NCBI GenBank assembly: GCA_002839825.1
Contig: PGYU01000001.1
Coordinates: forward strand, 1-64,000
DNA: 64,000 nt
Direction: 5' to 3'
Source: Ignavibacteriae bacterium HGW-Ignavibacteriae-1
GTDB taxonomy: Bacteria > Bacteroidota > Ignavibacteria > Kapaibacteriales > UBA2268
The notes under the pieces were generated by a model. The model had not been told where the DNA came from and ran no database searches. It saw only the letters and a program-made list of their open reading frames with translations. Position numbers and translations under genes: made by a program. Each line of letters starts with the position of its first letter. The first letter of the stretch is position 1. Positions 5,175 through 48,773 of the stretch are shown piece by piece.

Positions 5175-5246
5175 CCGTAAACTTAAGTTTTTTTAGTTCG
5201 TCATAGCTGTAATTATGTTTGTTATATTAAAATTTGAGTTTTATCT

Positions 5247-32989: not shown

Positions 32990-33074
32990 TCCGACTTAAT
33001 ATTCAAACATAACAAAGCTAAATACGTCCTTCAGGCAAAACTAAATCAAAAAATATTGCTTGAAGGACTTTTTC

Positions 33075-33800
33075 ATGAACAAAAGAGAATTTTTAGCTGC
33101 CGGTGCAGCATTGAGTGCTGCGTCTGTATTTCCAATGACATCTTTGGCTCAATCAAAAATTAAAATCAACGATTTGGACAAAACTGTTGATTCATCAGGT
33201 AAGTATGTCCTGCCTGATTTGCCTTATGCTTATAACGCTCTCGAACCACATATTGACGAACAAACGATGAAACTTCATCATGACATCCATCATGCCGGAT
33301 ATGTCAAGGGTTTGAACACAGCTACAGAAAAAATTCAAGATTCGATTAAAAATAACGATTTCGCTACTATCAAACATTGGGAACGCGAGTTAGCTTTCCA
33401 TGGTGGCGGACACTTCCTACACTCCATTTTTTGGAATGTTATGGGACCAAAACAAGGAAATCGTAGTTCGGACTTGAACAAATATATCAACAAATCATTT
33501 GGTTCATTTGATGGATTTACCAAGCTATTTGCTGCTGCAGCAGGTGCAGTAGAAGGTTCGGGCTGGGGGATAATGCATTACGAACCGGTTGCCGATAAGT
33601 TAGTAGTTATGCAAGCCGAGCGTCAGGGCAATCTTACTCAGTGGATTACAGTCCCGATTTTGCCTGTTGATGTGTGGGAACATGCCTATTATCTAAAGTA
33701 TCAGAACAAACGTGGTGATTATATAAAGGCATTTATGAATGTAATAAATTGGGAGTATGTGTCGGAGCAATTTGACAAAACTCTGGCAATTTATAAATAA
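33075..33800 (+). CDS. Exported Fe/Mn-family superoxide dismutase
   Basis: A 241-residue enzyme converting superoxide to hydrogen peroxide and oxygen. The mature part starts near YVLPDLPYAYNALEPHI. Metal ligands by family alignment are His68 (LHHDIHHAGYV), His116 (GGHFLHSIFW), Asp199 and His203 (DVWEHAYY). The GGGH motif resembles the Mn or cambialistic type, but metal choice cannot be settled from sequence. Unlike most Fe/Mn SODs it has a signal peptide, MNKREFLAAGAALSAASVFP, resembling a Tat signal with Lys-Arg in place of Arg-Arg. The ATG at 33075 has AAGGA upstream. It is single and closed by a strong terminator. Confidence 0.94.
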   Translation: MNKREFLAAGAALSAASVFPMTSLAQSKIKINDLDKTVDSSGKYVLPDLPYAYNALEPHIDEQTMKLHHDIHHAGYVKGLNTATEKIQDSIKNNDFATIKHWERELAFHGGGHFLHSIFWNVMGPKQGNRSSDLNKYINKSFGSFDGFTKLFAAAAGAVEGSGWGIMHYEPVADKLVVMQAERQGNLTQWITVPILPVDVWEHAYYLKYQNKRGDYIKAFMNVINWEYVSEQFDKTLAIYK

Positions 33801-34049: not shown

Positions 34050-34610
34050 ATGTTATTTAAGAAAAAAAATATAGCAGAAGATGAACTTCAGAACGCCACA
34101 AAGGCGCTCAATCATGGCAGTGCAGAAGCATTCCACTTGCTATATCAGAACTATGCCCCAAAAGTTTACCGATACTGTGTGAAGATGCTTGGAGATGAGA
34201 TTTTGGCTGAAGATGCCTTCCAAGAAACTTTTGTTAGAATTTATGAAAAAAGAGATGGATTTAATGGTCAGAATTTCTCTGCTTGGCTTTTTACTATAGC
34301 TCGAAACACTTGCTACAACTATTTGCGTCAGAAAAAAGAACATGAATCATACGATGAGACTTTTCATCATCCCGATAAAACCCCGACGCATGACATTGGT
34401 CTGAAAGACCAAATTGACAAAGCAATGCAAATGTTACCGGTGCCGCTTAGAGAAGCAGTGATATTGCGTGAGTATGAGGAATGTACTTATCAGGAAATTG
34501 CAGACATTTTACAAATTGAACTTTCACTGGCTAAAATCAGAGTTTACAGAGCCAGAATTATATTAAGAAAATTACTTCAACCATTGGTTAAGGAAATAAA
34601 TGAGTCTTGA
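34050..34610 (+). CDS. ECF-type RNA polymerase sigma factor
   Basis: A 186-residue group IV sigma-70 factor with only regions 2 and 4. Region 2 (about 22-95) includes LYQNYAPKVYRYCVKML, LAEDAFQETFVRIYEKRDGF and FSAWLFTIARNTCYNYLRQKK. Region 4 (about 130-182) has LPVPLREAVILREYEECTYQEIADIL followed by KIRVYRARIILRKLL. It redirects RNA polymerase to a small regulon. The stop overlaps the start of the next gene by 11 bases, as in sigma/anti-sigma pairs. The ribosome site is weak (AAAGG about 15 bases upstream). The preceding 200 bases hold no gene and probably contain its promoter. Confidence 0.95.
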   Translation: MLFKKKNIAEDELQNATKALNHGSAEAFHLLYQNYAPKVYRYCVKMLGDEILAEDAFQETFVRIYEKRDGFNGQNFSAWLFTIARNTCYNYLRQKKEHESYDETFHHPDKTPTHDIGLKDQIDKAMQMLPVPLREAVILREYEECTYQEIADILQIELSLAKIRVYRARIILRKLLQPLVKEINES

Positions 34611-35925
34611 AATTTTAATATCGAAGTATATTGATAGTGAATTATCAACCACCGAAGACCTGCAATTGCGGGAATCTCTTCGGGATAATATTCATTCCAA
34701 ATCAAAATTTGATTCGGCAATTGACACTCACCATCAATTAAAGCAGGACGCAGCCTCAATACGCGTACCTGAAAAACTCTTGCGTGACACCGAAGACAAA
34801 ATATTAATGAATATTATGGCTGCTCAGCCGGCTTCTGCTCAAATTACCAAGATGACTTCAAGATGGTATCAATATTCAGCTGCTGCTGTAATATTAGTTG
34901 CTTTCATGATATCCGGCGTTATGCAGATAAGCGAACAAAATTCGCCACGTGCAATAGCTTTCTTGCAGAATACCACTGCAGCAACAGTTGATTCCGATAA
35001 TATCTTAGTAGCTGAATCCACTAAAAATAATTCATCGAACTCGATTGAATTGAAATCAGAATCCGTGTCGCAAATCGCAGCAGCTAAAGATGAAATCGAG
35101 GTTTCCGTTGTTCCCACTGATAATATTATACCAGAATTATCAGCAAATGATGAACTGTCTGTTGCAACTCAATCCGGCAACGCAGCAATTGATTCAGATG
35201 ATTCAGAACAAGTAAGTATTTTAAGTGAAAAAATCATAATTCAATCGGGTAACACCAATAATGTGTTGAATAATAGCATCTCCGATGGAGCAATCGTTCA
35301 AATACCCAAATCGAATTACAATGTAGCCTCAAATTTACCTCCAACATATTTTGCAGAGCCTTTTATGGGATTTGCCGGAGTACAGTTGCACACTTTCATG
35401 TCGTATGATTTTTCGCATTCAGGATTCAAAACGAGCGGAAATTCACCTATTCTGAATATTTCACAAAGCATCTCATACGAGGTAACCGATAGGCTTGGTT
35501 TCGGTGTAGAATTTGGAATAACAGAATTCACTTATGATAGAAGACAAAATATCTATTTACCCGGAACAGTCGAACATCAAACCGGTCCATCAGTTCAGGC
35601 ACCGACAGGTGGTGGCGAGAATCATGTGATTGTTCCTGTTGAAATAGAAACAGTACGACAATTCATGTGGGGAACTGCATTTATGGATTATGCAATTGTA
35701 AAATATGACGATTTTGTAATTGTCGGGAGATTAGGTTTAGGTGGTTCCAACGAAGGACCATTGGGATTTGGAAGGCTTTATGCTCAGTATGACTTGTTCC
35801 GCTATCTTTCATTTACTGTTGGTACTGAAGGACGTTTGTTTGTCAATGATTTACCAAGTTCGCAATTCAATAGAGCAATGCGTTCAAGCAGTTCAGTTGT
35901 TTATGGTATTAGACTTAAGTTTTAA
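34600..35925 (+). CDS. Anti-sigma-factor-like membrane protein with a C-terminal outer-membrane-like domain
   Basis: A 441-residue protein. Residues 1-85 are cytoplasmic and helical (LISKYIDSELSTTEDLQLRE resembles the start of anti-sigma domains, though no HxxxCxxC zinc motif is present). One membrane helix spans about 91-110. A Ser/Thr/Asn-rich linker (about 115-250) follows. Residues about 255-441 have alternating strands with aromatic girdles (FMGFAGVQLHTFMSYDF, YEVTDRLGFGVEFGITEF, FVIVGRLGLGG, YLSFTVGTEGRLFV) ending VYGIRLKF, as in outer-membrane barrel proteins. AAGGAAATAA precedes the ATG. Overlap with the sigma gene argues for co-regulation. The combination of an inner-membrane helix and barrel-like domain is unusual. 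Confidence 0.72.
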   Translation: MSLEILISKYIDSELSTTEDLQLRESLRDNIHSKSKFDSAIDTHHQLKQDAASIRVPEKLLRDTEDKILMNIMAAQPASAQITKMTSRWYQYSAAAVILVAFMISGVMQISEQNSPRAIAFLQNTTAATVDSDNILVAESTKNNSSNSIELKSESVSQIAAAKDEIEVSVVPTDNIIPELSANDELSVATQSGNAAIDSDDSEQVSILSEKIIIQSGNTNNVLNNSISDGAIVQIPKSNYNVASNLPPTYFAEPFMGFAGVQLHTFMSYDFSHSGFKTSGNSPILNISQSISYEVTDRLGFGVEFGITEFTYDRRQNIYLPGTVEHQTGPSVQAPTGGGENHVIVPVEIETVRQFMWGTAFMDYAIVKYDDFVIVGRLGLGGSNEGPLGFGRLYAQYDLFRYLSFTVGTEGRLFVNDLPSSQFNRAMRSSSSVVYGIRLKF

Positions 35926-36017
35926 ACATTACAAGATAATTCTTTGAAATTACACAAATTTTTAATAATTTGGATGTTGTGTTAAAATATTTTTTTGAAA
36001 TTATTAATTAGGAATTG

Positions 36018-36086
36018 TATAGGCTAACTGTTACAAGATTTTACCAAAATCATGCCAATTATATTGGTATCAAGTACCAGCCTATA
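36018..36086 (+). promoter_or_regulatory. Possible structured leader before the TonB-receptor gene
   Basis: TATAGGCT (36018-36025) pairs with AGCCTATA (36079-36086). Inside, TACCAA (36042-36047) can pair with TTGGTA (36064-36069), while CCAAT/ATTGG (36055-36067) and GGTA/TACC (36066-36078) offer competing pairings. No known riboswitch core is recognised. It lies about 90 bases upstream of the receptor start, in a 248-base gap otherwise without features; whether it is transcribed is unknown. Confidence 0.35.
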
Positions 36087-36173
36087 TCTATACTATACGT
36101 TAGAATGATAAATTTGTTACAAAAAACATGTGTAAAAATAAAATTTCTACTAGTTTATTAAAGGAGTAGCTTT

Positions 36174-39100
36174 ATGCGTAAGTTATTTTTACTTATTTTC
36201 TTGGGATTGATTATTTTGCCCGCAATGTCATATGCCAGTATATATGGCGTTTTACGGGGTAAAGTAGTAGATGAAGAGGGTAAGGGATTGAGAGGTGCTA
36301 CAGTATTTTTGGAAGGAACTGCCAAAGGTACGGTAGTCAGAGAAAACGACGGTAGCTTTACCATCGTAAATATTGAAGCTGCTGAATATACAGTACGATT
36401 TACCTATGTCGGTAAACAGACTGTTAGACAGCTTGTAAGAGTTTCTGCTGACAAAACATCTACAGTTGAAATTGTTATGAAAGATGAATCAGGCGGCGTT
36501 ACGACTGAGACAGTAACAGTAACTGCAGAAACAATGGTGAACGTTGATGACGAAGGCGGCACCAAGAAAATTATGTCAGGCGACCAAATCCAAAATATCG
36601 CTCGTGAAGGGCTATCCGGTGTTGTAGCTATGACCTCAGGTGTGCTACAGAGCGGTGGTGGATTCGTTATCCGTGGTGGTCGTCAAGAAGAGACTCAAAT
36701 CAAAGTTGATGGTATTGACGTCGGCAATCAATTTACAGGTGGATTCGGCGTTTCGGGTTCCGGATACTATCCTATGGTATCCAATTATGCTACCGAAGAA
36801 GTTCAAGTTATTACCGGTGGTTTTACTGCAGAATATGGTGATGTATCATCCGGTGTTGTTAATACAATCGTTCGTCGAGGAAGAAATGACAGATACGATG
36901 GTTTCATTCGTTGGTTAACTGATGTGCCTGCACTTTATGGCAGCCAACCTACCGGTTTACAAGTTATACGCGAAGGCACTCGCCTTAAAGCAGTTGAAAC
37001 AGGGGACGGTGCGCAATGGCAGGGCAGCAAACAAAATACATTTGAATTTGGTACAGGTGGACCGATTCCGGTTCTGAATGATATGGAATTCTTCAAAAAC
37101 GCTACATTTTATATCACGGGTAATTACTTTCATGAAAACCACCGTGATAATACTTACGAAATTTATGACCCTTGGGGAACAAATATAGGTCAACGTCCTG
37201 ATAATCAATCATGGGTTCGTGACATTCGCGGTAATATAAGATTTACACTTCCAAATGATATGACATTACAAGTTAGTGGCAATTATGGTGTTTCGAGCTT
37301 TGAATTCTCAAGTTGGGGATGGATGTATGCCAATCAAGAAGGTCATGTTTATGATAAAACTGCTGATGGCAGCTTCATACTCAAAACTAACGAAGATGGC
37401 TCGCCCGTAACCAATGGCATTCCGGAAAGAATAGCACGCCAGAACGTGCTTGATCAATTCGTAAATGGCTTCAACATTTTAATAAATCATACTTTGACTT
37501 CTAAGAGTTTTTATGAACTTAGAATTGGTAATGCATCAAACAATGACGCCAGTTCAAGAAGAGTTGGTTGGGAAGACCCCGGTTTCTTTTCAGGATTTGA
37601 AGTATGGGAACCAACCGACGATTATAAAGTCGAAAACAACCAATTAGTACCCGGTCAAGATAGAATTATTGACCACTATACATTTCTTTCGGATATTGGC
37701 TACACCAAAGATGGATTTGCACGTGGCGATTTTCCTCAGAGAAATCCTATATCCGGATATTATGAAGGTAACTCAAATGCTTCCGGAACATATAACCCTT
37801 ATGGTATAACTAACTTGTTCCCTACTTCAGGTGGTGGTTCCTTTAGTTTCAGAGATGGTAATTGGTGGACTTTTGATGGTAGCTATACCCAAATTTTCAA
37901 TACAGGTGAATTCGACCATACATTTAAAACAGGTTTCGTGTTGACATTGTTTGAACTTCATCGTCATACAAACAGCAATCCATATGATGGAAATCCATTC
38001 TTCGATGTTTATACCGATGGCAGATGGGGCGGGAATTTATATGCTGAAAATGATGCTGTTCTCGAAAAAACTAACAAACCATATAAACCAACGAAATTTG
38101 GTATTTACTTTAATGACCAAATATCCTTCAAAGGTATCAGAATCAGTGCCGGTATGAGACTTGACTATTTTAATGCCAATTCCGAATATAGGCTACCATC
38201 TGAAAATTGGATACCAATAAGTTCCGATACAGGTTTTGCTACGGCAGCTGCAAAAGTGCAAGTTAGTCCGCGTATAAACATATCATATCCAATTACCGAT
38301 ATGTCATTTTTGCGACTTTCTTATGGTATGTTCTTCCAAATGCCACAACTTCAATATATGTATGATAATTTTGCAGTTGATTTATTACGTGGTAATTCAG
38401 TTATTGGCAATCCAGATATGGACGCTCAAAGAACTAATCAATATGAAATCGCATATAGTCAGCAACTTACTGAAGTATTTGCATTTACAACTGTCGCTTA
38501 TTACAAAGATATTTACAACCAATTAGGTCTCATGCGTGTTGAAGCCGTTCCGGAACCATATTACCAATATACCGTTTCAGATTATGGTAGTTCACGGGGA
38601 GTAGAATTTACTCTCGAAAAAATGGGACAAAATAATTTCTCATTTGATATCAATTATACTTTAGCTTGGGTTACCGGTACCTCACAAAATGCAACATCCA
38701 ATTATAATGTTGTTATTGACCCCTTTACTAACAAGCCGGCTTTCCCGCTTTCTGAGTATCCAATGGGTCAAGATATTCGTCATTATGCAAAATCAAATTT
38801 CAGAGTTTACTGGCAAAATAACGAAGGACCATCAATTGGTGGTATTAAATTGCTCGAAAATACAAATTTGATATTTACTGGTATTTACCGAACAGGTACG
38901 CCTTATACTCGTACTGACCGTTCAGGAACTGCAATTGCAGAACGAAACTCGGAAAGACAACCCTCGAGATGGCTTCTTGATGCAAGAATTTCAAAATCCT
39001 TCCGCTTAAGTGATATATTTGGTGATGGTGCAGGAAATTCAGAATTTGAAATTTTTGCAAATATCAACAATTTACTTAACCTATCTCAAGCTCTTGGAGT

Positions 39101-39404
39101 GTATGCTGCAACCGGTGACCCGATTGATGATGGTAGAACTTTTGACCGCCAAGTAGGTGACTTTGCAAACACAGCTTACTACAAAGACCCTGATATCGCT
39201 AACCCGGCAACTTATGCTTCGGTGCAATACGATTTTTACGGCAACAGAAGATATAACGAAGTAGCGGATTTTGACGGCAATGGTATCGTAACACAAGCAG
39301 AAACTTACGAAAGTTATTTTAAATATGTAGCAACGATTATTGCTTTCCGTGGCAATTTCCAAATTCCCAGAACCATCAACATCGGTATGATGTTTAGATT
39401 TTAA
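36174..39404 (+). CDS. TonB-dependent, SusC-like outer-membrane receptor
   Basis: A 1076-residue outer-membrane protein. A signal peptide (about 1-22) is followed by a carboxypeptidase-regulatory-like domain (about 25-105: GVLRGKVVDEEGKGLRGATV). A plug domain (about 130-240) has GGGFVIRGGRQEETQIKVDG and SNYATEEVQVITGGFTAEYG. The 22-stranded barrel fills the rest and ends MMFRF, with the aromatic C-terminus used for barrel assembly. No clear TonB box is seen before the plug. SD AAGGAG precedes the ATG. No SusD partner follows; instead a giant secreted protein and a PorV-like barrel do, so this may work with surface-protein export rather than glycan import. Confidence 0.88.
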   Translation: MRKLFLLIFLGLIILPAMSYASIYGVLRGKVVDEEGKGLRGATVFLEGTAKGTVVRENDGSFTIVNIEAAEYTVRFTYVGKQTVRQLVRVSADKTSTVEIVMKDESGGVTTETVTVTAETMVNVDDEGGTKKIMSGDQIQNIAREGLSGVVAMTSGVLQSGGGFVIRGGRQEETQIKVDGIDVGNQFTGGFGVSGSGYYPMVSNYATEEVQVITGGFTAEYGDVSSGVVNTIVRRGRNDRYDGFIRWLTDVPALYGSQPTGLQVIREGTRLKAVETGDGAQWQGSKQNTFEFGTGGPIPVLNDMEFFKNATFYITGNYFHENHRDNTYEIYDPWGTNIGQRPDNQSWVRDIRGNIRFTLPNDMTLQVSGNYGVSSFEFSSWGWMYANQEGHVYDKTADGSFILKTNEDGSPVTNGIPERIARQNVLDQFVNGFNILINHTLTSKSFYELRIGNASNNDASSRRVGWEDPGFFSGFEVWEPTDDYKVENNQLVPGQDRIIDHYTFLSDIGYTKDGFARGDFPQRNPISGYYEGNSNASGTYNPYGITNLFPTSGGGSFSFRDGNWWTFDGSYTQIFNTGEFDHTFKTGFVLTLFELHRHTNSNPYDGNPFFDVYTDGRWGGNLYAENDAVLEKTNKPYKPTKFGIYFNDQISFKGIRISAGMRLDYFNANSEYRLPSENWIPISSDTGFATAAAKVQVSPRINISYPITDMSFLRLSYGMFFQMPQLQYMYDNFAVDLLRGNSVIGNPDMDAQRTNQYEIAYSQQLTEVFAFTTVAYYKDIYNQLGLMRVEAVPEPYYQYTVSDYGSSRGVEFTLEKMGQNNFSFDINYTLAWVTGTSQNATSNYNVVIDPFTNKPAFPLSEYPMGQDIRHYAKSNFRVYWQNNEGPSIGGIKLLENTNLIFTGIYRTGTPYTRTDRSGTAIAERNSERQPSRWLLDARISKSFRLSDIFGDGAGNSEFEIFANINNLLNLSQALGVYAATGDPIDDGRTFDRQVGDFANTAYYKDPDIANPATYASVQYDFYGNRRYNEVADFDGNGIVTQAETYESYFKYVATIIAFRGNFQIPRTINIGMMFRF

Positions 39405-39455
39405 TTAGGGGGAATTGATAAAATGAAAATTATTAATGAAAAATTAGAGGTAATA

Positions 39456-42400
39456 ATGTTTAACAGAAAATCTACGAGGTTTTACTTAGCTTTGCTTGCC
39501 ATTGTTTTCGTTTCTACATTCAACATGAATGCTGCAACGATTAATACAGGCAAAAATGCAGATGATAAGGGAAACGATCAAGAACGATTGCAAGCTAAGA
39601 CATATAATAATGTATATGATTTGCAACAAAATTCAATCAGTAACATTCAATTCTATACTACCAATTATGGTATATTCGGATATGATGTTGCAAGAAGTAT
39701 TGGCGGGGGATATTGGCCCCGAGGCTCTCTAAATCAATATATCTTTGCCGGTGGACTTTGGATTGGTGTTGAAAAATACAGAAATCCAACTGATGCTGAA
39801 AGAACCAGATATGTATCTATTACATATAATCCTAATTCAGGAAGAGGCTGGTATGTACCCGGACGTATAAATTATGGTGGTCCTAATAACACGGAGTTTC
39901 CAAATCTTGATGCGGTTGACCCAACAGATGTTTTGAAATACAGAACTTACTTTTCAACCGATTTTATACCAAGTACAGGTGAACCGGTCAATCCTGACCA
40001 TCAGTATTATTGGCCCATATGGGATGCATCTAAAAATGAAGAGGATACACTTAAAACAAATAGATATTTAGGTTATTTTATTCCACAAACTGAACTTAGA
40101 AATACAGCAACTCATCCACGTGGACCAGCTTTCATTTCCGGTGAAGATATCTTTTCTACTTACAAAGATACAGATTTAAGCAGATATGAAGGTGGTGTTG
40201 CTTCACGTCGTGAAAGAGGTTATCCAATTCGCTTTCAAGTTGACCAAATGATTTATTCATGGGGTTTTGGAGATTACAAAGATTTTATCTTTTTAAAATA
40301 CGAAGTGACCAATTATTCTACCGATACTTTATGGAATTGTTGGTTAGCTCCAATTCAAGACGTTGATATTGCTCGTGCACCTGCCACATCTTATGGTGCC
40401 GGTAATGATAGAGCAAAATATTTTGATTGTAATGATACACTCAATATGGCAGTTCAGTGGTCGAATGCAGACAGAGGTGAAGCCAATCAAGGTTTTGGAT
40501 ATCTTGGCTTTGACTTTTTAGAATCACCGGCTGTTGTTGTAATAAATGACACAACATTTAATGAAATCCGTGATTCACTTGGTGTTGTTATCCAAATTGA
40601 TACTATACTCACTCCTGTTGGACCAAATGAGTATAACCCTGAATTGCACGGTCCTGACGCTCCGCAATTTGTGAGAAAAGACAAAATAGTTTTCACTAAT
40701 GATGAGCAACTTGGACTCGTTACATTTCGTAATTGGGCAATTGACGATGATAGATTAGAAGATGAAGAAAGATATAATTTCATATCTACCGGTCAACAAG
40801 ATGGCGATGACGCCCCGGGTGACAAACGATTCTTGATGTCAACCGGACCATTCCATATGCGTCCCGGTGATACAGTTAGGACTGTTGTAGGTATGATTCT
40901 TGCAAACTCTACCAAAGGTGTTGATGCTGATGGTACCTGTGATGATATGAAAGAATTAGAACGTAAGGATATTTTCGCTCAACAAGTTTACGATAATAAC
41001 TTCCGTGCTCCAACTCCGCCTGACCGTGCCATCATCACAAATTGGCAAGGACTAAATCATGCAGTTAGTATTCAGTGGGATAATACTTCAGAAATGTCTT
41101 ACGATATTTATGAAAAAGGATTAGATTTTATGGGTTATAAGATTTATCGTGCCCGTAGAACTAATCTTGATACTTTTGCTATCAATGAAATTTCACCGGG
41201 TGGTAACTATCCAAGCGGTAAAGGTCCATTCGGATGGAAACAAGTTGCACAATATAGATTGCCTCCTCCATTCCAAAAATCACAATACAGAGCAGGAACT
41301 GATGATACTGATATTTCTATGCCGATGATTGATGATTTGCGTATCATAGGTCCATATTTCGATGCTAATGGTACTATCGTAGATTCGATGGCTATTAAAG
41401 TTATGAGGATTGGGAGTGGTATGCGAGTTACTCCAAGGCAATATGCTCCGGTTATCGTTAGTATCGATACTTCTGCATTTAGAGACCCTTGGGGGAAATA
41501 TTGGGCTAAATTGGTAGAGCGTGACCCTAATCTTCGATTTGATGAAACAGATACATTACGTAGAGTTTCACAAGGAGGTTTTCCTTATGTAAATTATAAT
41601 CCCAATCTCAGACATGAATTATTCGACTCAGTTTTAGTCGGAGTTGCATATTTAGACAGAGCCTTGGTTAAATTTAATCCATTACTTTTTAAACGTTCTA
41701 CATTTACTAAATCACCAAAAGAAATTGATAGTATTTTTAATTTATTCACTGATGGTATTGTAGGTCAATGGAGAAGAGTATGGGATGACAAGTTAAAAGA
41801 TTCAGTTTTCCAAAGATTGACTACTGATGCCATTTGGTTAAAAGAAACCCAAAGAATAGCGAATATTCATGGCAAAGATACAACCATAATAGATATTTGG
41901 ATGCCTAGAGCGGCAAGTACAGTGATGCAAGATACAACACATGTATTTGAAACTTTAACTACCCTTTACGAATATATTAAATTAGGCAATGTCCAAATTG
42001 ATTTTCCTGAATTTGAGCAAAGTTTAGAAGTCAGACGTGATGTAATAGGTCCGTATATGGCAAGAGTCACAAACAATAGAACTTTCTTTGACGTAGGCGA
42101 TGATAATCAAGATGGCTACATCTCTCCTGATGCTGACCCGACTAAAACTGAAAAACTAATCAATAATATTGATTATTTCTACAAAGTTTTAGCATATGAC
42201 GAGGGTGATTATCAACAACCTACTCCAAGTAAGCTTAATACATCGTCTCTTGGTTTGACAAATATGATTAAAACATTTCCTTCAGCTGCTCCTTCAGGAG
42301 ATATGCCTTCTATTCAAATAATTCATGTTGATTCTAGTTTGATAGGTGGCTTATATAACTTCAGATTCTTTGCAGTGGACAATGACAGATTGATACAAAA

Positions 42401-44201
42401 ATTTGAAGGTGATGAACTTATTCTTAAATTTGAACCGTATTGGTTTTTATCAAGTTTCCCTTTTGATTCAAAATCTCCTACTTCCTTAACCAGTTTTGGC
42501 TTATATCGGAATATAATTACTTTATGGAGTAAAAATACAGGCGATACTTTGTATAGGGGTTTTGCAAGTTATGAATCTAAACCTTGCGACTTGAGCTATT
42601 ATGAATTTTTCACAGAAAATGCAGCATCATATGTACTATCAGATACGGCTGTTTACGACCCTACTACTGACACATATATGGACTTTGGAGAGAAGATGGC
42701 AACAGGTATTAAAACAAGAACCGGAAGATTTTCGTCAGGCGACTTTACATATCCTAACTATTGCTATACTAATAGTTGGATGCCAAATGCCTATGGAATT
42801 TTAGGATTCAGTTTTGATTTTACTATTAGCCAATATGCCGGACGATTCCGTCCTGATTCTTTGACATTGTCAACAGCTTATGGGCAGGGTGTTAATGCTA
42901 ATACACCAGTCAATTTTAAAACGGACGAGAATGCGCTTTATGAAACTAATCCTGCACTTGCAATTGTTCAAAGAACTATGCCGGTTGGATTTGATTTCAA
43001 CACTTATAGTACCCAATACGGCAGTTTCAATAATGGTCCTGGTATTTATGAGGTTGAATTCTTACCGGGCGGTTCTGTAGATAACTACGAATTAGCTTGG
43101 CATAGGGACCAAAATTCTAATACATTCCAAATTGAATATTTAGATGTGAAAGTAAAAAACATCATTGAGTTCAAACGTCCTTCAGGTAGTGGCGATTCTG
43201 TAATAGTTGATTATCCAAATGATGTAGAACATTTAGCAATTCAACCTGTTCTTAAAAAAACTAAATCAACGGTTTTACAGTTTGGCAACGAATATAATAA
43301 TATTTGGGGAGCAGATATACTTTATCCTAACCCTGCTAATTTAGCTTATTACGGAGAATCAACTAATGATTTTATCGGTAAATATAATATTCATGCTTAT
43401 GGTTGGATTTCTAATTCTAATCTCAAAAGAGAACAAGTTACACCGGCAAATATTCCACTCCAAGTTGCCCGACCAAAGACAGGTATGTTAAGTGGTTATG
43501 GAGTTGAGTCGTTTTCAGGCTTACCACAACAAAGTGATAATGGTTTAGGTAGATATTACAAGACTGCTATTTCCGTCAATGGTGCTGACACATTAGATTT
43601 TACTCATATTATAAATATTTCCGGCGTTCAATTTGCATTAGATTTTGCTAACAAAGGAAGAACAAATCTATTTCGTCCGGATTGGGTCCGCAAAACACAG
43701 GATGACTATAATATCTGGACTGCCGTTGATTTCAAACCCGGCGATAAGATTTATCTCAGAACTTATGGCGGAGCATTGGGATTACCATTGCCCGGAGCTA
43801 CTGTAATTGCTAAAGTTGGCAAAAGCGCTCCCGACAACGAACAATATTCTGATGGTCAATTAGACGGTGTTAGTGTGGTTCCGAATCCATACTATATTTC
43901 GCACGAAGGTGTCAAATCACCATACGATTCGAAAATCTACTTTACTAAATTACCTCCGCGTTGCACAATTCAGATTTATACTGTAGCCGGAGACTTAGTA
44001 AATACGCTCGAACACGATGAATACCAAAATGAAGGTGACGAAACAAGAAATGCCGTGCAAGTTTGGGATTTGCTTTCAAGCAATCTCCAACGTGTCCAAA
44101 GCCAAACTTTCGTTGCTGTAATTACTACTCCAAACGGAGCTCAAACAGTGAAGAAATTCAGCGTTATCGTTGGTGGATTCAGAATAATTGAACAAAACTA
44201 A
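39456..44201 (+). CDS. Giant secreted protein of the TonB-receptor/PorV locus, probable T9SS cargo
   Basis: A protein of about 1581 residues with a signal peptide (STRFYLALLAIVFVSTF then NMNAA). Its long middle is rich in aromatic residues, Asp and Asn and I recognise no catalytic domain. Repeated segments such as WNCWLAPIQDVDIARAP and VGMILANSTKG occur in surface proteins of related bacteria. The end (about 1475-1581: VSVVPNPYYISHEG, PRCTIQIYTVAGDLVNTLEH, TFVAVITTPNGAQTVKKF) resembles the FlgD-like/T9SS C-terminal sorting fold, with the typical VVPNPY entry. Starts at 39423 and 39456 both have ribosome sites; 39456 fits the signal peptide better (AGAGG). It begins soon after the receptor gene, so both are probably in one operon. 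Confidence 0.72.
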   Translation: MFNRKSTRFYLALLAIVFVSTFNMNAATINTGKNADDKGNDQERLQAKTYNNVYDLQQNSISNIQFYTTNYGIFGYDVARSIGGGYWPRGSLNQYIFAGGLWIGVEKYRNPTDAERTRYVSITYNPNSGRGWYVPGRINYGGPNNTEFPNLDAVDPTDVLKYRTYFSTDFIPSTGEPVNPDHQYYWPIWDASKNEEDTLKTNRYLGYFIPQTELRNTATHPRGPAFISGEDIFSTYKDTDLSRYEGGVASRRERGYPIRFQVDQMIYSWGFGDYKDFIFLKYEVTNYSTDTLWNCWLAPIQDVDIARAPATSYGAGNDRAKYFDCNDTLNMAVQWSNADRGEANQGFGYLGFDFLESPAVVVINDTTFNEIRDSLGVVIQIDTILTPVGPNEYNPELHGPDAPQFVRKDKIVFTNDEQLGLVTFRNWAIDDDRLEDEERYNFISTGQQDGDDAPGDKRFLMSTGPFHMRPGDTVRTVVGMILANSTKGVDADGTCDDMKELERKDIFAQQVYDNNFRAPTPPDRAIITNWQGLNHAVSIQWDNTSEMSYDIYEKGLDFMGYKIYRARRTNLDTFAINEISPGGNYPSGKGPFGWKQVAQYRLPPPFQKSQYRAGTDDTDISMPMIDDLRIIGPYFDANGTIVDSMAIKVMRIGSGMRVTPRQYAPVIVSIDTSAFRDPWGKYWAKLVERDPNLRFDETDTLRRVSQGGFPYVNYNPNLRHELFDSVLVGVAYLDRALVKFNPLLFKRSTFTKSPKEIDSIFNLFTDGIVGQWRRVWDDKLKDSVFQRLTTDAIWLKETQRIANIHGKDTTIIDIWMPRAASTVMQDTTHVFETLTTLYEYIKLGNVQIDFPEFEQSLEVRRDVIGPYMARVTNNRTFFDVGDDNQDGYISPDADPTKTEKLINNIDYFYKVLAYDEGDYQQPTPSKLNTSSLGLTNMIKTFPSAAPSGDMPSIQIIHVDSSLIGGLYNFRFFAVDNDRLIQKFEGDELILKFEPYWFLSSFPFDSKSPTSLTSFGLYRNIITLWSKNTGDTLYRGFASYESKPCDLSYYEFFTENAASYVLSDTAVYDPTTDTYMDFGEKMATGIKTRTGRFSSGDFTYPNYCYTNSWMPNAYGILGFSFDFTISQYAGRFRPDSLTLSTAYGQGVNANTPVNFKTDENALYETNPALAIVQRTMPVGFDFNTYSTQYGSFNNGPGIYEVEFLPGGSVDNYELAWHRDQNSNTFQIEYLDVKVKNIIEFKRPSGSGDSVIVDYPNDVEHLAIQPVLKKTKSTVLQFGNEYNNIWGADILYPNPANLAYYGESTNDFIGKYNIHAYGWISNSNLKREQVTPANIPLQVARPKTGMLSGYGVESFSGLPQQSDNGLGRYYKTAISVNGADTLDFTHIINISGVQFALDFANKGRTNLFRPDWVRKTQDDYNIWTAVDFKPGDKIYLRTYGGALGLPLPGATVIAKVGKSAPDNEQYSDGQLDGVSVVPNPYYISHEGVKSPYDSKIYFTKLPPRCTIQIYTVAGDLVNTLEHDEYQNEGDETRNAVQVWDLLSSNLQRVQSQTFVAVITTPNGAQTVKKFSVIVGGFRIIEQN

Positions 44202-44209
44202 TTTTAATA

Positions 44210-44239
44210 ACTCCCGCTTAAGATAAAGCGGGAGTATTT
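44210..44239 (+). terminator. Hairpin between the giant secreted protein and the PorV-like gene
   Basis: ACTCCCGCTT (44210-44219) pairs perfectly with AAGCGGGAGT (44226-44235), loop AAGATA. The following ATTTAACG is a poor T-tract, so it may be a partial terminator or an mRNA-stability element within an operon. Confidence 0.6.
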
Positions 44240-44264
44240 AACGAAAAAATGGAGTTAGAAAACA

Positions 44265-45305
44265 ATGAAAAAATTTATAATTATATTAGCATTATTCTCG
44301 TTGCCTGTTTTTGTTGCAAATGTTTATGCTGTTGTTGATGCCACTCAAGGCACAACAGCCGGCGAAGCATCAAAAGTAGGCGCTGCAGGCGGGCAATTCC
44401 TCAAAATAGGTATAGGCGCCAGAGCTAATGCGATGGGCGGTGCTTTTTCTTCAATGGCAAACGATTTGTCGTCAGTACATTGGAATCCTGCCGGTTTGGC
44501 AAATATCAAAAGCATGGCTGCCGATTTCTCTTATACTCAATGGTTCGCAGGGTTTTCACATAATTTCGCCGCCTTAGCGATGCCACTTTCAGAGGACTTT
44601 ACCTTCGCTGCAAATGTTACATCGTTCACAAGTGGTGATATTCCCGTAACAACTATGTATCGCCCTGACGGAACAGGCTCAAACTATTCGGTTAATGATA
44701 TAGCCCTTGGTGTCAGTTTATCAGGGTTCTTGACTAACGAATTCGCTTTTGGCATAACTGCTAAATATGTTCAGAATGCTTTTGCTTCTGTATCAAGTAC
44801 AGGTTTAGCGTTTGACATTGGTACATTGTATGATTTCGGATATTATGGAATCAAATTAGGTTTTTCTATTCATAATCTCGGTACTCAACAAGCTTATGAT
44901 GGACAAGATTTGAGAACTACTCAGAAATTATATGACGCCATGCACTCTACACCATTAGATGCGACTTATTTGGCATATCCATATAATTTACCAATTATTT
45001 TCCGTGCAGGAATTTCCGGTGATATTTTGAATTCAGGCGATAATCACTTACGTTTAGCCGCTGACTTCAATACTTTGACTGACGTTCCCGAACAATTTGC
45101 TGTTGGTGCAGAGTACGTATGGAAAGATTTTCTAGCTTTCAGAGCCGGTTACGTAATGGGTCATGACCAATTAGGTTTCTCCGGTGGTGTTGGCTTGAAA
45201 TATTTCGGTGGTGGATTTGGCGGTCAAGTTGATTACGCTATCACACCAACTGTCAACTTAGGTTTACTTAACAGATTGAGTGTTTCCATGAATTTTGGTT
45301 CCTAA
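44265..45305 (+). CDS. PorV/PorQ-family outer-membrane protein
   Basis: A 346-residue outer-membrane barrel with signal peptide (about 1-22). The region following it, KVGAAGGQFLKIGIGARANAMGGAFSS then DLSSVHWNPAGLANI, is the hallmark of the PorV/PorQ (UPF0164/FadL-like) family. PorV in Bacteroidetes shuttles T9SS cargo from the translocon to the attachment machinery, while PorQ is an accessory barrel. The barrel continues with FADFSYTQWFAG-like strands (ADFSYTQWFAGFSHNF) and ends LLNRLSVSMNFGS. Its position after a large protein with a sorting domain fits a cargo-specific shuttle. Exact assignment to PorV versus PorQ is not possible here. Confidence 0.87.
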   Translation: MKKFIIILALFSLPVFVANVYAVVDATQGTTAGEASKVGAAGGQFLKIGIGARANAMGGAFSSMANDLSSVHWNPAGLANIKSMAADFSYTQWFAGFSHNFAALAMPLSEDFTFAANVTSFTSGDIPVTTMYRPDGTGSNYSVNDIALGVSLSGFLTNEFAFGITAKYVQNAFASVSSTGLAFDIGTLYDFGYYGIKLGFSIHNLGTQQAYDGQDLRTTQKLYDAMHSTPLDATYLAYPYNLPIIFRAGISGDILNSGDNHLRLAADFNTLTDVPEQFAVGAEYVWKDFLAFRAGYVMGHDQLGFSGGVGLKYFGGGFGGQVDYAITPTVNLGLLNRLSVSMNFGS

Positions 45306-45325
45306 TTTGCCTATGTATATTATTC

Positions 45326-45364
45326 AATTGCCGTTAAGTAAATTATGCTTAACGGCAATTTTTA
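45326..45364 (+). terminator. Rho-independent terminator after the PorV-like gene
   Basis: AATTGCCGTTAAG (45326-45338) pairs over 13 bases with CTTAACGGCAATT (45348-45360), loop TAAATTATG, followed by TTTAT. It overlaps the in-frame region upstream of the next gene, which supports placing that gene's start at 45387. Confidence 0.88.
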
Positions 45365-45386
45365 TAAAAAAATAACAGGTATTACA

Positions 45387-46823
45387 ATGAAAAAAATTGT
45401 GCTTTTGTTAATTTTTGTTTCTTATGCGGCTTATTCTAATCCGCTATTTGTTGCAATTGACCATTCATCTTTTATGGATGAATCAGGAAATTATTCCTGG
45501 GAATTGACATATTCATTTCATAATAATATTCTAACTTATGTTGACCAAGACAAGTTAGGATATTATCAAGGAGAATTATTTTTCGATATTGAAATCAGCA
45601 GCTCTACCCAATCTATTTTGACCGAACAATGGGTGGTTTCTTCAAAAGTTGAATATGAAAATAAGGATAAAGTTATGAATTTGTTGGGGAAGAAGTCCTT
45701 TCAGCTTCAACCCGGACAATACAAAGCTAAGTTGAAAGTTCTCGATGTATATAATGATGAGAGAAACATTGAGACCGAAATTGTCTTTATTGTAGATAAA
45801 GTTGAAGCAAATAATATTCATTTAAGTATGCCAGTTTTTGCTTATGAAATTGATGATGCTGCCAACCCGAAAACTGATTGGGATAAGATGTTTTTACGTG
45901 GAAACTATTACATACTGCCAAATTCTGCTTTGGAATTCGTGGGGCAGTCTCATAATGTAAAAGGTTTTTTCCAAGTATATAATGCCGATAAATACGCCCA
46001 AAGTGGTTATAATATTGGCTATCGTATTATAGATGGTGCCCGGCGAGGTTTGAAAAGTTTTAATGTTGAAATTAAAGATTCCAAATCCGTGAATATGATT
46101 CCATTTGATTTAGCTTTGGATACAGTTGCCTCAGGAGTGTATTATTTGCAAATCGTAATGTCATATCCGATAGATTCGCCAGTTGATTCTATTGAAGTTG
46201 AAAAAAAGTTTTATATAAATAATCCATCAAAACCACCTGTACATAAAATCTACTTTACTGAAAATGAAATGTTCCAAAAAAGCGAGTTTGCTACTTTAGA
46301 CAAGTTTGCAGTGGAAGAAGAATTCCAAAAAGCATCTGTCATTGCTGAATCGGGTGAAAAGGAGCAATTTGAATCACTTTCAACATTGCAGGCAAAACAA
46401 AGATTTTTGTTTCGGTTTTGGTACATTCGTGATTCGGATACAACTACCAACATCAATGAAACACTCATCGAGTTCAGGAGAAGAGAAGAATATGCCAACA
46501 CATACTTCAATACAGGTTATGTAAAAAATGGTTGGAGTTCAGACAGAGGTAAAGTCATGTTGAAATATGGCATTCCATCTCGAAGAGAGCCAACTGACGG
46601 ACATTTTGGTTATAATTCTTATGAAGAATGGCTGTACGAAGGTGTTCAAGGTGGTGCCAAATTCTATTTTGTTGACCGAACAGGAAATGGGCATTTTAGA
46701 TTGGTACATTCTACAGCAAGGGGTGAAATATATAACGCAAGTTGGTATAATGATTATGTCCCATCAACTCGTGATATAAGGATTGATGATGCGCACCCAA
46801 CACCCGAGCCTGTCCGAAAATGA
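45387..46823 (+). CDS. GWxTD-domain exported protein
   Basis: A 478-residue protein with a signal peptide (MKKIVLLLIFVSYAAYS). The first about 310 residues are beta-rich Ig-like sequence. The C-terminal about 130 residues match the GWxTD domain: FLFRFWYIRDSD, ETLIEFRRREEYANTYF, then GWSSDRGKVMLKYGIPSRREP with GWSSD in place of GWxTD, and YEEWLYEG. This domain is widespread in the FCB superphylum and its function is not established. The ATG at 45387 starts the signal peptide and lies after the terminator. It overlaps the acyltransferase gene by four bases, tying it to LPS assembly. Confidence 0.83.
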   Translation: MKKIVLLLIFVSYAAYSNPLFVAIDHSSFMDESGNYSWELTYSFHNNILTYVDQDKLGYYQGELFFDIEISSSTQSILTEQWVVSSKVEYENKDKVMNLLGKKSFQLQPGQYKAKLKVLDVYNDERNIETEIVFIVDKVEANNIHLSMPVFAYEIDDAANPKTDWDKMFLRGNYYILPNSALEFVGQSHNVKGFFQVYNADKYAQSGYNIGYRIIDGARRGLKSFNVEIKDSKSVNMIPFDLALDTVASGVYYLQIVMSYPIDSPVDSIEVEKKFYINNPSKPPVHKIYFTENEMFQKSEFATLDKFAVEEEFQKASVIAESGEKEQFESLSTLQAKQRFLFRFWYIRDSDTTTNINETLIEFRRREEYANTYFNTGYVKNGWSSDRGKVMLKYGIPSRREPTDGHFGYNSYEEWLYEGVQGGAKFYFVDRTGNGHFRLVHSTARGEIYNASWYNDYVPSTRDIRIDDAHPTPEPVRK

Positions 46824-47728
46824 AACGTTTTAATATCATAATTGATTATCTCACTTTGTTAATTGTGATTTGCTTAGGGTTTATTTCAAGATTCTTGAGT
46901 ATTCAATCTCGGGGTAAGTTCGGACAGTTCGTAGGTCGTTTTTTAATGATTTCAAGACGCCGCAAAAAAATCACATATGATAATATTAAGACTGCATTTC
47001 CTGAATTTGCCGAAGAACGGATTCAGGAAATACTTGTTGGGTCATACCATAATCTGGGTATAACTATGATGGAATTATTGGCTTTTCCATATCTCAAGAT
47101 TGATGGTTTCAGAAAGTACTTGAAATATGAAAATGAAGATTTATTCCGACAAATTCACTCTCGTGGCAAAGGAATGATTTTACTGTCCGGGCATTACGGG
47201 AATTGGGAAATGTTAGCTTGTACTGCAGGTGCTTTCTCGAAAATTCCTATTACTATTGTTGTCAAACCTCAGCGCAACAAACTTATAGACCATTACCTGA
47301 ACCAATATCGGACTATGTACGGCAATTCCATAGTTCCAATGTCTAAAGCTGCAAAAATCATGATAAAAGCTATCAAAAATAATGAGGCTGTTGCATTGCT
47401 TGTTGACCAAAGTGCAGATGCAAGTAAGGATATTTTTGTTGATTTTTTTGGCAGAAAAGCTGTTACTTACGAGGCTCCGGCAGCTTTAGCTCTACGCTTA
47501 AATGTGCCTATCTTGATTGGATTTGCTGTCAGAAATTCTGATTTCACTTATACAGTAGAATTGAATGAACTGAAGCATGATGATTTGAATAATGATAGCG
47601 CAGGTATTGCCGAACTCACCAAACGTCATGTCGCCATTTTGGAAAATATTATAAGAAAGCATCCGCATCTGTGGGCATGGCAGCACAATCGTTGGAAGCA
47701 TAAAGCGCCAAATACCGAAAATGAATAA
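46820..47728 (+). CDS. Lipid A biosynthesis acyltransferase (LpxL/HtrB family)
   Basis: A 302-residue inner-membrane-associated enzyme that adds secondary acyl chains to lipid A. One N-terminal helix (about 8-28) is followed by the acyltransferase domain. The catalytic HxxxxE motif is GHYGNWEM at about residues 121-128, then KPQRNKLIDHYLNQYR and LLVDQSADASKDIFVDFFG. The tail YHLWAWQHNRWK-like WAWQHNRWKHK is family-typical. It begins with an ATGA overlap with the GWxTD gene and overlaps the next glycosyltransferase by eight bases, so the three are co-expressed. Confidence 0.9.
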   Translation: MKRFNIIIDYLTLLIVICLGFISRFLSIQSRGKFGQFVGRFLMISRRRKKITYDNIKTAFPEFAEERIQEILVGSYHNLGITMMELLAFPYLKIDGFRKYLKYENEDLFRQIHSRGKGMILLSGHYGNWEMLACTAGAFSKIPITIVVKPQRNKLIDHYLNQYRTMYGNSIVPMSKAAKIMIKAIKNNEAVALLVDQSADASKDIFVDFFGRKAVTYEAPAALALRLNVPILIGFAVRNSDFTYTVELNELKHDDLNNDSAGIAELTKRHVAILENIIRKHPHLWAWQHNRWKHKAPNTENE

Positions 47729-48773
47729 TCATTTTCAAAATATTGCTGTTTTGCAAACCGCATTTCTGGGTGATGTTGCACTCGCTATGCCATTGTGCAA
47801 GGCTCTAAAAAGCATTTATCCTAATTCTCGGCTGACATTTATTACTACAAAAGCTGCAAGCCCAATCGCCGAAATTGTATCAAGTATTGATGAAGTCATC
47901 GTTTTCGATAAACGAAATGCTCATAGTGGATTCAAAGGAACTTTCGCTTTTGGTAAATTTTTGAAAGAATTTAAATTTGATTTATTCATTTCATTGCATC
48001 GTTCCTTTCGTTCCTCACTGATTGCCAAGCTTGCCAAAGCAGATTTTTCAATTTCTTATGATACTGCTACACTATCATTTTTATTTGACAAAAAATGCAA
48101 GTATCGGCTGCACGAGCATGAAATCAGAAGGAATCTGAATTTTTTAGAATGCATTGGAAAAGGTGAATTAATTGATGAATTTGATAATCCCGCTGTCAAT
48201 CTAAATTTTCCCGATTATGACATAAACTATGTCGAGCAATATCTTAATCAAATTGGCAATAAGTCTGATAAAACTGCATTAATTGCCCCAAATTCTGTTT
48301 GGGAAACAAAAAAATGGACTAAAACCGGCTATATAAATTCAGCTGAAATTTTGACAAATAGGGGATTCAATGTACTGATTATCGGCTCTCAATCCGATAA
48401 GGATTATTGCGATGAAATATCTCAAAAAAGTGGAGCGATAAATACTTGCGGCATATTCACAATTCCTCAAACCATTTATCTGATGAAAAAAGCACAATTT
48501 TTAGTTTGCAATGATAGTGCCCCGATTCACTTTGCAGGAATGGTTAATTGTCCGATTGTTGCCATATTCGGACCAACATCGCCGCTGTTCGGCTTTTATC
48601 CACGCTCCCGGCAAAGCACTGTAATCGAGAGGGCGGAGCTTGATTGTAAGCCATGTGAAATTCACGGAAACAAAAAATGTCCCTTAGGGACATTTGATTG
48701 TATGAATCTTATTAAGGCTGAGGAAGTTGCCAACGCTGCTAATAATATCACTTCGACTCAGACAGCTCAATAA
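47721..48773 (+). CDS. Glycosyltransferase family 9 (heptosyltransferase-like)
   Basis: A 350-residue GT-B enzyme related to WaaC/WaaF, which add heptoses to the LPS core. The N-terminus AVLQTAFLGDVALAMPLCKAL and the C-terminal donor-binding segment CNDSAPIHFAGMVNCPIVAIFGPTSP are diagnostic, along with ALIAPNSVWETKKWT. Four cysteines near the end (CKPCEIHGNKKCPLGTFDC) also occur in related heptosyltransferases. It is the last gene of the GWxTD-acyltransferase operon. Donor and acceptor sugars are unknown. Its end overlaps the convergent EVE gene by 26 bases, with no terminator between. Confidence 0.9.
   Translation: MNNHFQNIAVLQTAFLGDVALAMPLCKALKSIYPNSRLTFITTKAASPIAEIVSSIDEVIVFDKRNAHSGFKGTFAFGKFLKEFKFDLFISLHRSFRSSLIAKLAKADFSISYDTATLSFLFDKKCKYRLHEHEIRRNLNFLECIGKGELIDEFDNPAVNLNFPDYDINYVEQYLNQIGNKSDKTALIAPNSVWETKKWTKTGYINSAEILTNRGFNVLIIGSQSDKDYCDEISQKSGAINTCGIFTIPQTIYLMKKAQFLVCNDSAPIHFAGMVNCPIVAIFGPTSPLFGFYPRSRQSTVIERAELDCKPCEIHGNKKCPLGTFDCMNLIKAEEVANAANNITSTQTAQ

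Follow-up and report, generated by a model that had tools for sequence, protein, structure and literature searches.

This locus raises the question of what a TonB-dependent receptor serves when its gene is followed not by that of a SusD lipoprotein but by genes for a very large secreted protein and a PorV-type barrel. It lies in a stretch of 64,000 nucleotides (hereafter the window) of Ignavibacteriae bacterium HGW-Ignavibacteriae-1 (contig PGYU01000001.1, positions 1 to 64,000), whose genome is about 3.2 Mb. A preliminary description, made from the window alone, had taken the receptor, the large protein, the barrel and a GWxTD-domain protein for a candidate undescribed export or attachment pathway. 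The receptor, the large protein and the PorV-type barrel constitute a real cassette of constant gene order that recurs in the phylum. Its products probably form a surface uptake complex, in which the large protein, exported by the type IX secretion system (T9SS) and held by its own PorV-type barrel, would partner the TonB receptor as SusD does SusC. 'Giant' (the large protein), 'triad' and 'cassette' are labels of this analysis. The publications cited by PubMed Central identifier were available in part, and statements on them refer to those parts.

Conservation of the receptor-giant-barrel cassette

The genes and domains of the cassette in the window are as follows.

36174..39404, + strand: TonB-dependent receptor, 1076 aa, with CarbopepD_reg_2 (N-terminal), Plug and TonB barrel domains (Pfam)
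39423..44201, + strand: giant secreted protein, 1592 aa, whose profile (A1) has matches across the order
39600..41012, + strand: N-terminal domain of the giant, about residues 60-530, presumably of supersandwich-type fold (AlphaFold2 model and fold search)
43851..44171, + strand: putative C-terminal PorZ-type T9SS signal domain of the giant, residues 1477-1583 (fold match to PorZ 5m11)
44265..45305, + strand: PorV-family barrel of the cassette (module barrel), 346 aa (NF033709, 173 bits against a cut-off of 90)

The four genes named in the preliminary description were present, and the families of receptor, barrel and GWxTD protein were confirmed by Pfam and NCBIfam models. The giant, for which an in-frame ATG at 39456 is a possible alternative start, was matched by no Pfam model at E 0.1 and by no NCBIfam model at E 1, and sequence searches of the PDB returned nothing with the receptor (E 0.01) or the whole giant (E 1).

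For the survey of the order, 100 loci were annotated, and 14 duplicates were removed by a common 100-base stretch, leaving 86. Full or partial matches of the giant were found in 53 of the 60 genomes, a figure that takes in the window's own genome and genomes with the N-terminal domain only (e.g. G013); among the matches listed, there was usually one long copy per genome. A receptor of the cassette's type was located upstream of the giant in all 83 testable loci, and a PorV-type barrel downstream in all 75 testable loci (73 by the gene caller, 2 by a search of all open reading frames, ORFs). The apparent lack of the barrel in L121 and L135 was a gene-caller artefact, as was that of receptor or barrel in three loci of the wider phylum (L185, L187 and L188); the search of all ORFs recovered the genes.

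In the phylum, the profile of the giant matched 190 of 395 genomes, outside the order mostly through the last ~110 residues. In a first set of 20 loci, picked by hand because their matches were strong and their open frames mostly long, the barrel was present in 20/20 and the receptor in 19/19 testable loci; in a second set of 20, which follows the order of the profile-match list with places already fetched skipped, the values were 20/20 and 18/18. Together, the PorV-type barrel was found in 40/40 and the TonB receptor in 37/37 loci where the contig allows. Most giants of the first set matched the N-terminal profile region of about 404-527, scoring 16-67 bits when the nearest families are set aside. 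Since barrel and receptor adjoin the tail-matched proteins at these loci, the tail marks the cassette, and the cassette is widespread. Every long testable giant was flanked by both partners, and the exceptions found were tailed proteins without a receptor in one genome (G344). At L175, the giant is replaced by two tailed ORFs, with a 237-aa ORF before the barrel; at L193, the barrel is truncated by the contig end. Among the best 80 of 135 loci of one contig scan, no locus could be placed in another phylum.

These neighbour counts exclude chance linkage of receptor, giant and barrel, and the linkage across relatives that the preliminary description had put up for testing was borne out. As to its proposal of an undescribed system, no account of the cassette as a system was found in the openly licensed literature, subscription papers being mostly outside that scope, and the available parts of PMC10994853 and PMC12118408 have no bearing on the cassette.

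Some genomes carry many copies. Three PorV-family genes scored over the cut-off in the window's genome, and 3-5 matches were found in three other genomes of the order and 15-21 in four genomes outside it. In two genomes, each a single contig, full receptor-giant-barrel triads made up 8 of 17 PorV places (G344) and 11 of 18 (G229), places under ~64 and ~82 bits, respectively, being left out. The other 9 and 7 places take in the presumed PorV and PorQ; among these 16, a receptor lies directly before the barrel at L255, a receptor before the barrel and a tailed protein further upstream at L280, and tailed proteins without a receptor at L264, L265 and L268. The parts of the cassette therefore also occur alone, as barrels outside triads and as short proteins with the N-terminal domain only.

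The distances among receptors, tails, whole giants and barrels of 69 distinct triads were correlated (Mantel r 0.73-0.92, p 0.0001). The same held for the 8 triads of G344 taken by themselves (r 0.80-0.91, p at most 0.0032) and for the 11 triads of G229 (r 0.77-0.84, p 0.0001), and because paralogues of one genome give this result, species history cannot explain the co-divergence. The preliminary description had named phylogenetic co-evolution as a check, and receptor, giant and barrel do co-diverge; the cassette thus passes down the generations as one unit, which is no proof of contact.

Some loci showed irregularities. At L047 (G018, 3144-6350), the receptor of the cassette is split into three ORFs, through assembly frameshifts or in a broken gene. 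In G344, a giant-barrel pair at L296 (1-15275) is followed by three more giants before a GWxTD gene, and four tailed ORFs precede one barrel at L265. Two close relatives of the window, L063 and L134, are deposited as Desulfobulbaceae and Bradyrhizobiaceae, titles that look mislabelled.

Barrel, tail and N-terminal domain

In the window's genome, PorU (845 bits) adjoins PorV (238 bits, equivalog cut-off 250), and PorQ lies elsewhere (196 bits, equivalog cut-off 220). The module barrel scored 70 on the PorV model and 83 on the PorQ model, against the same cut-offs, and its identity to the PorV and PorQ of the genome was 23% and 26%, respectively. In a tree of 101 barrels, in which the window's barrel was represented by close relatives, all 69 module barrels and 8 others were separate from two clades, one presumed to be PorV (10 rows) and the other PorQ (7 rows). 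Each of these two clades had 100/100 support, and the branch with the module barrels 90/96, slightly below the program's mark for a firm branch. The tree placement and the separate PorV and PorQ of the genome mean that the module barrel is neither PorV nor PorQ; it is a paralogue distinct from both and forms a separate lineage.

The giant was modelled with AlphaFold2 as residues 38-840 (mean predicted local distance difference test score, pLDDT, 83.8) and 836-1592 (mean pLDDT 80.8). In the fold search with residues 836-1592, the tail gave the only outstanding match, which was to the C-terminal domain of PorZ (5m11; Z 11.0, root-mean-square deviation (rmsd) 2.0, 90 aligned, 26% identity). PorU came further down (Z 7.3, rmsd 4.1, 93 aligned), together with many Ig-like domains of unrelated proteins, and the signal domain of RemA (RemA-CTD) in the T9SS complex was returned for the tail at a Foldseek probability of 1.00. 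When all PDB sequences were screened with the tail profile at E 10, PorZ was the sole return (E 0.2). NCBIfam models over 44 giants at E 0.01 detected PorZ in 21, the generic sorting signal TIGR04183 in 12 and PorU in 7; four of seven giants scanned singly matched PorZ, located on the tail. PF13585 (CHU_C T9SS signal), which we take to stand for the type B signal, matched 2/44 giants, with a best E of 0.0011. The T9SS-like tail proposed in the preliminary description was confirmed by fold, as a PorZ-like domain, and not by a sorting-signal model.

The T9SS components in the window's genome comprise SprA (955 bits) and PorZ (314.7 bits) in addition to the PorU, PorV and PorQ mentioned above. 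That the giant is itself the PorZ of the lineage was rejected, as the true PorZ lies on another contig and the window's giant does not match the PorZ model. PorU and PorZ retain their signal domains, anchored by PorV and PorQ (PMC5562754, PMC5121618), and the linker before the signal domain is structured in PorZ and unstructured in cleaved cargo (PMC5121618). The segment before the tail of the giant was confidently modelled (pLDDT 97, 93, 95 and 75 for model blocks 601-640), and two blocks of low pLDDT (46 and 54) lie inside the tail domain. Cognate PorV-like barrels have been proposed, in the available part of a review, to shield such tails. Judging from its tail, the giant would be exported via the T9SS, and from fold and pairing we infer that the tail is retained and bound to the adjacent PorV-type barrel.

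The middle region of 4/44 giants, L201 among them, matches the phage tail tube model NF052337 (24 bits in L185).

The N-terminal model has a fold that we presume to be the one named supersandwich. Among the 50 matches listed in the fold search (Foldseek was also run), Z was 14.5-19.1 and rmsd 2.9-4.4, with 218-285 residues aligned at 5-11% identity; they include GH94, GH116, GH65, GH149, GH161 and GH174 enzymes, and all the alignments fall between model residues 11 and 563. The same domain occurs in the window's genome in two shorter proteins, of 543 aa (L218, 6784-8412) and 612 aa (L219, 6299-8134), which have ordinary type A sorting tails and no adjoining receptor or barrel. In the giant, the modelled fold points to a domain that may capture a glycan.

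SusCD, carbohydrate genes and the downstream block

The window's genome contained no SusD (PF07980, 0 matches) and none of the SusC signature TIGR04057, which upholds the earlier remark that the receptor is not followed by a SusD. The term 'SusC-like', which the preliminary description had applied to the receptor, is a loose fit here: the window's receptor matched no SusC/RagA model at E 1, whereas 38 of 44 scanned cassette receptors matched TIGR04056 at E 0.001. A lipoprotein check of the window's giant found no cysteine in the first 55 residues, and a lipobox-like pattern, as defined for this analysis, occurred in 2/69 triad giants and in 5/92 giants of the order, duplicates included.

Across the order, f7 is the one family in which no sampled genome has a giant, and each of its three (G041, G049 and G056) holds 14-16 SusC signatures and 4-8 SusD matches; the other 57 of the 60 genomes have 0-5 SusC signatures and 0-1 SusD matches. 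Family f7 looks like a natural case of replacement. In family f35, the 23 genomes that the giant's profile matched had a median of 6 SusC signatures, and the 22 unmatched genomes a median of 16 (Mann-Whitney p 7e-6; p 0.017 by genus means), counted as all matches at E 0.001 and not only those over the cut-off, with 19 standing for at least 19 and relatedness among genomes remaining in the test. These results suggest that the presence of the cassette goes with a scarcity of SusCD, and that the replacement is partial.

A flank check of 23 proteins, chosen by eye from 18 of 22 listed cassettes, found carbohydrate-family genes adjoining 6 of the 18: GH88 and GH28 (L195), pectinesterase (L197 and L208), GH92 (L203), GH16 with malectin and CBM9 (L256) and CBM4/9 (L272). 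Outside this survey, the alginate utilisation locus of Rhodothermus marinus carries tonB, hypA and hypB in the order of the cassette, together with three alginate lyase genes (PMC9530828). With homology judged from annotation and gene order, this locus would be the strongest outside evidence on function.

The cassette of the window is flanked by the following genes.

34050..34610, + strand: extracytoplasmic function (ECF) sigma factor, 186 aa (Sigma70_r2 and r4_2, Pfam)
34600..35925, + strand: anti-sigma protein with a layout like that of the dual membrane-spanning (Dma) class (weak NF052375 match, 20 bits against a cut-off of 100)
45345..46823, + strand: GWxTD-domain protein, 492 aa, a lineage-linked neighbour (TIGR04514, 65.9 bits against a cut-off of 28)
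46820..47728, + strand: lipid A acyltransferase (LpxL-like), a conserved neighbour (Lip_A_acyltrans, 166.9 bits)
47721..48773, + strand: glycosyltransferase family 9 (GT9), a conserved neighbour (Glyco_transf_9, 103.5 bits)

All genes from 34050 to 48773 have the same direction, in the order ECF sigma, anti-sigma, receptor, giant, barrel, GWxTD, LpxL-like and GT9. The gaps from receptor to giant, barrel and GWxTD gene are 18, 63 and 39 bases, and the LpxL-like and GT9 genes overlap the preceding genes by 4 and 8 bases; owing to these short gaps and overlaps, one transcription unit running into the LpxL-like and GT9 genes is plausible.

The GWxTD gene, which the preliminary description had counted as part of the system, lay within four genes downstream in 51/68 of the order's testable loci, LpxL and GT9 usually coming next, whereas the GWxTD profile found a gene at 3/40 loci of the phylum. 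At class level, loci were selected for GWxTD matches close to PorV, with L297, which has no cassette, as a comparison. Here, PorV is followed by GWxTD, LpxL and GT9 in G238 and G168, the latter with a second GWxTD gene, and in G344 the GWxTD-LpxL-GT9 block comes after three extra tandem giants; none of the nine GWxTD matches of G229 lay within 10 kb of a listed PorV place. In quick barrel and receptor trees, the order together with L173/L174 stood apart from L294, L295 and L263, and the GWxTD label needed 3 and 2 changes, respectively. Because the GWxTD-linked cassettes are not one lineage in these trees, the block is tied to more than one cassette lineage, and it either outlived a replacement of the cassette or joined twice. 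The GWxTD gene is linked at some cassettes only, among them most testable loci of the order and three at class level, so that its place in the proposed system is partly supported. Judged by this gene neighbourhood, the copy of the order may have a role in envelope or lipopolysaccharide (LPS) biology.

Upstream, the ECF sigma gene was found in 35/59 testable loci of the order, a lower bound obtained with one query sequence, and the anti-sigma gene in 40/59; the anti-sigma and receptor genes lay within 1.5 kb of each other in 12 loci only, duplicates included. A T9SS-tailed BNR-like gene preceded the receptor in 48/59 loci, its BNR and sorting-tail matches being partly below the Pfam cut-offs. 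It is absent from the window, where 248 bases remain (35926-36173), and from its relatives L043, L063, L044, L064 and L094. The anti-sigma protein comprises an N-terminal anti-sigma part, one membrane helix, a long low-complexity tether and a barrel-like C-terminus ending in YGIRLKF, a layout judged by eye in an alignment of 19 sequences and conserved there. The Dma class of anti-sigma factors, which combines an anti-sigma domain, one membrane helix, a tether and a C-terminal barrel and is encoded next to an ECF21 sigma gene, controls outer-membrane vesicles in Bacteroides (PMC13088901); the protein at 34600-35925 looks like this class in its by-eye layout, and its gene adjoins one for an ECF sigma factor. 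Control of the cassette by the ECF pair is suggested by position.

The preliminary description had also noticed a shared AT-rich codon look of receptor, giant and barrel. The GC content at third codon positions (GC3) was indeed low, at 0.286, 0.247 and 0.311, respectively, against a mean of 0.356 (standard deviation 0.049) over 44 ORFs picked by script; however, the anti-sigma (0.296), GWxTD (0.282) and GT9 (0.299) genes were equally low, total GC was not low, and the giant did not have the lowest GC3 of the 44 ORFs. The shared look is thus real for third positions and reaches into flanking genes. Recent horizontal acquisition, considered on account of the low GC3, was ruled out by the synteny across the order.

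Elsewhere in the window, a 426-aa gene on the - strand (61857-63137) had the lowest GC3 of the listed ORFs (0.239) and a weak match to positions 397-680 of the PorZ profile (31.8 bits). A superoxide dismutase gene with a weak Tat-type signal match (33060-33800) directly precedes the ECF pair, as it also does in the same-genus locus L043.

Mechanism, rival readings and significance

In the surface uptake complex that we favour, the signal peptide would take the giant across the inner membrane, and the T9SS would carry it across the outer one. The PorZ-kind C-terminal domain of the giant would be taken up by the adjacent PorV-family barrel and stay there, the barrel acting as dedicated carrier and anchor; such a role is suggested by the fold, the separate barrel lineage, the one-to-one pairing and the co-divergence. 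The anchored giant would stand beside or over the receptor, and its N-terminal domain would capture a glycan or glycoconjugate for TonB-driven import. The giant would thereby do the job of SusD, with protein anchoring via the T9SS in place of a lipid anchor. A role in glycan uptake may apply to at least part of the family, and the copy of the order, linked to GWxTD and LPS genes, may serve another ligand than the amplified copies near carbohydrate enzymes.

Several findings weigh against this uptake complex. The sequence-level match of the tail to PorZ is weak (E 0.2), three of the seven giants scanned singly had no PorZ match at E 1, and the window's giant matched no NCBIfam tail model, TIGR04183 included, at E 1. 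The supersandwich fold is also found in proteins without sugar binding, and a fold shared with carbohydrate enzymes shows no function. Four genomes of the order (G003, G025, G029 and G032) lack the giant and are not richer in SusCD. In the SusC comparison, related genomes are not independent and the counts of 19 are minima; G259 and G326 have both a profile match and at least 19 SusC signatures, G229 has 11 triads and 11 SusC signatures, and G388 has neither a profile match nor many SusC. No carbohydrate-family neighbour was found among the 1-3 genes scanned at 12 of 18 cassettes, a raw count without a baseline. In the order, the cassette lies beside LPS genes and not carbohydrate enzymes, and because of these neighbours a fixed envelope role fits the order's copy better than nutrient choice.

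The last point leads to the reading of the cassette as a structural complex, in which the giant would be a coat or adhesin on the PorV-type barrel and the receptor an energised gate, sensor or assembly platform, with the order's copy tied to outer-membrane or LPS biogenesis. It agrees with the usual single long giant per genome of the order, among the matches listed, in synteny with LpxL and GT9, with the GWxTD-LpxL-GT9 block that also follows class-level cassettes, with the Dma-like anti-sigma pair upstream in many loci, of a class that controls outer-membrane vesicles in Bacteroides, and with a weak match of the N-terminal part of the receptor to an S-layer model (28.6 bits against a cut-off of 1400). 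However, 8-11 divergent copies per genome, the polysaccharide utilisation locus (PUL) of R. marinus and the carbohydrate-enzyme neighbours fit substrate choice better, and the N-terminal fold of the giant points to glycans; we regard the structural complex as unlikely.

It seems quite improbable that the barrel is a shuttle only, with PorU removing the tail, the giant being released or attached to LPS and the receptor taking up the products of its action. PorU and PorV are present in the genome, TIGR04183 matches 12/44 giants, and such a route of cleavage and LPS attachment is described in a P. gingivalis paper (PMC5562754) and in the available part of a review. Nevertheless, the tail resembles that of PorZ, whose signal is retained, the segment before it is confidently modelled, unlike the unstructured linker of cleaved cargo, and a common shuttle would need no own barrel for each cargo. 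Joint inheritance of the cassette would yield linkage and co-divergence even if its products were conserved neighbours without physical interaction, held together by co-regulation alone; this is very unlikely, as each receptor-giant pair keeps its own barrel paralogue despite the PorV and PorQ of the genome, and the gene order is constant. TonB-powered secretion or attachment, as first proposed, would have the giant moved or positioned by the barrel of the receptor, and is hardly credible. Receptor and giant do co-diverge and lie side by side at all testable loci of the order, but the T9SS outer-membrane components are present, the giant has a T9SS-type tail and the plug and barrel domains of the receptor are normal. 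From the dedicated pathway of the preliminary description, the unity of receptor, large secreted cargo and barrel is retained, whereas the TonB barrel in export is dropped, since SprA, PorU, PorV, PorQ and PorZ give export its own machine; the receptor looks like an uptake partner.

The favoured uptake complex shares parts with several known systems. PorU-PorV and PorZ-PorQ (PMC5562754, PMC5121618) also combine a surface protein that keeps its type A-fold C-terminal domain with a FadL-type barrel of the PorV family, and the giant's tail is closest to that of PorZ; the cassette differs in its cargo body, its barrel outside both clades, its TonB receptor and its many copies in some genomes, and its tail would be retained, as judged from fold and pairing. 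Type B cargo with a PorP/SprF-like shuttle (PMC12618676, PMC9143113) likewise joins each cargo gene to a gene for a carrier barrel of its own, directly after it, and serves surface anchoring, whereas the tail of the cassette is type A-like (PorZ; PF13585 in 2/44 giants only) and its barrel belongs to the PorV/PorQ family. TonB is not mentioned in the available main text of either paper. Like SusCD, the cassette combines a TonB receptor and a dedicated surface partner encoded next to it, has expanded into paralogues and, in some cases, stands in a PUL context; it differs in the lack of SusD in the window's genome, in giants that nearly all lack a lipobox-like pattern, and in a partner with a T9SS tail and a barrel gene next to it. 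The R. marinus locus (PMC9530828) consists of tonB (2,805 nt), hypA with a T9SS type A sorting domain (2,181 nt) and hypB of the PorV/PorQ family (1,056 nt); hypA encodes about 726 aa compared with the 1,592 aa of the giant, and hypA and hypB are given no function in the available part of that paper. In BamG-BamH of the Bacteroidota beta-barrel assembly machinery (BAM) complex (PMC12578637), a FadL-type outer-membrane barrel also holds a large surface protein through loops, but there the function is that of BAM and the surface partner is a lipoprotein.

That the cassette is a widespread alternative to SusCD, comprising a TonB receptor and a giant T9SS-delivered glycan-capturer kept by its own PorV-type barrel via a never-cleaved PorZ-like tail, is a claim we take seriously and place a little short of probable. 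If it is true, every cassette would encode an uptake machine complete in itself, a TonB-T9SS hybrid that brings along a type A-like shuttle of its own. This would contradict the view of one PorV for all type A signals, which according to PMC12618676 are all recognised by PorV, and would extend the idea of cognate shuttles from type B to type A-like T9SS signals. The same cargo-barrel family would then include PorZ-PorQ and PorU-PorV as two specialised members, and dozens of natural giant-barrel pairs would be available for studying why the signal domains of PorZ and PorU are retained. The 'hypothetical' genes of a known alginate locus would gain a working model. The giant is conserved through most of the order, yet no dedicated Pfam or NCBIfam model was found for it; the cassette would offer a testable answer to how large substrates are captured in Bacteroidota with few or no SusCD pairs.

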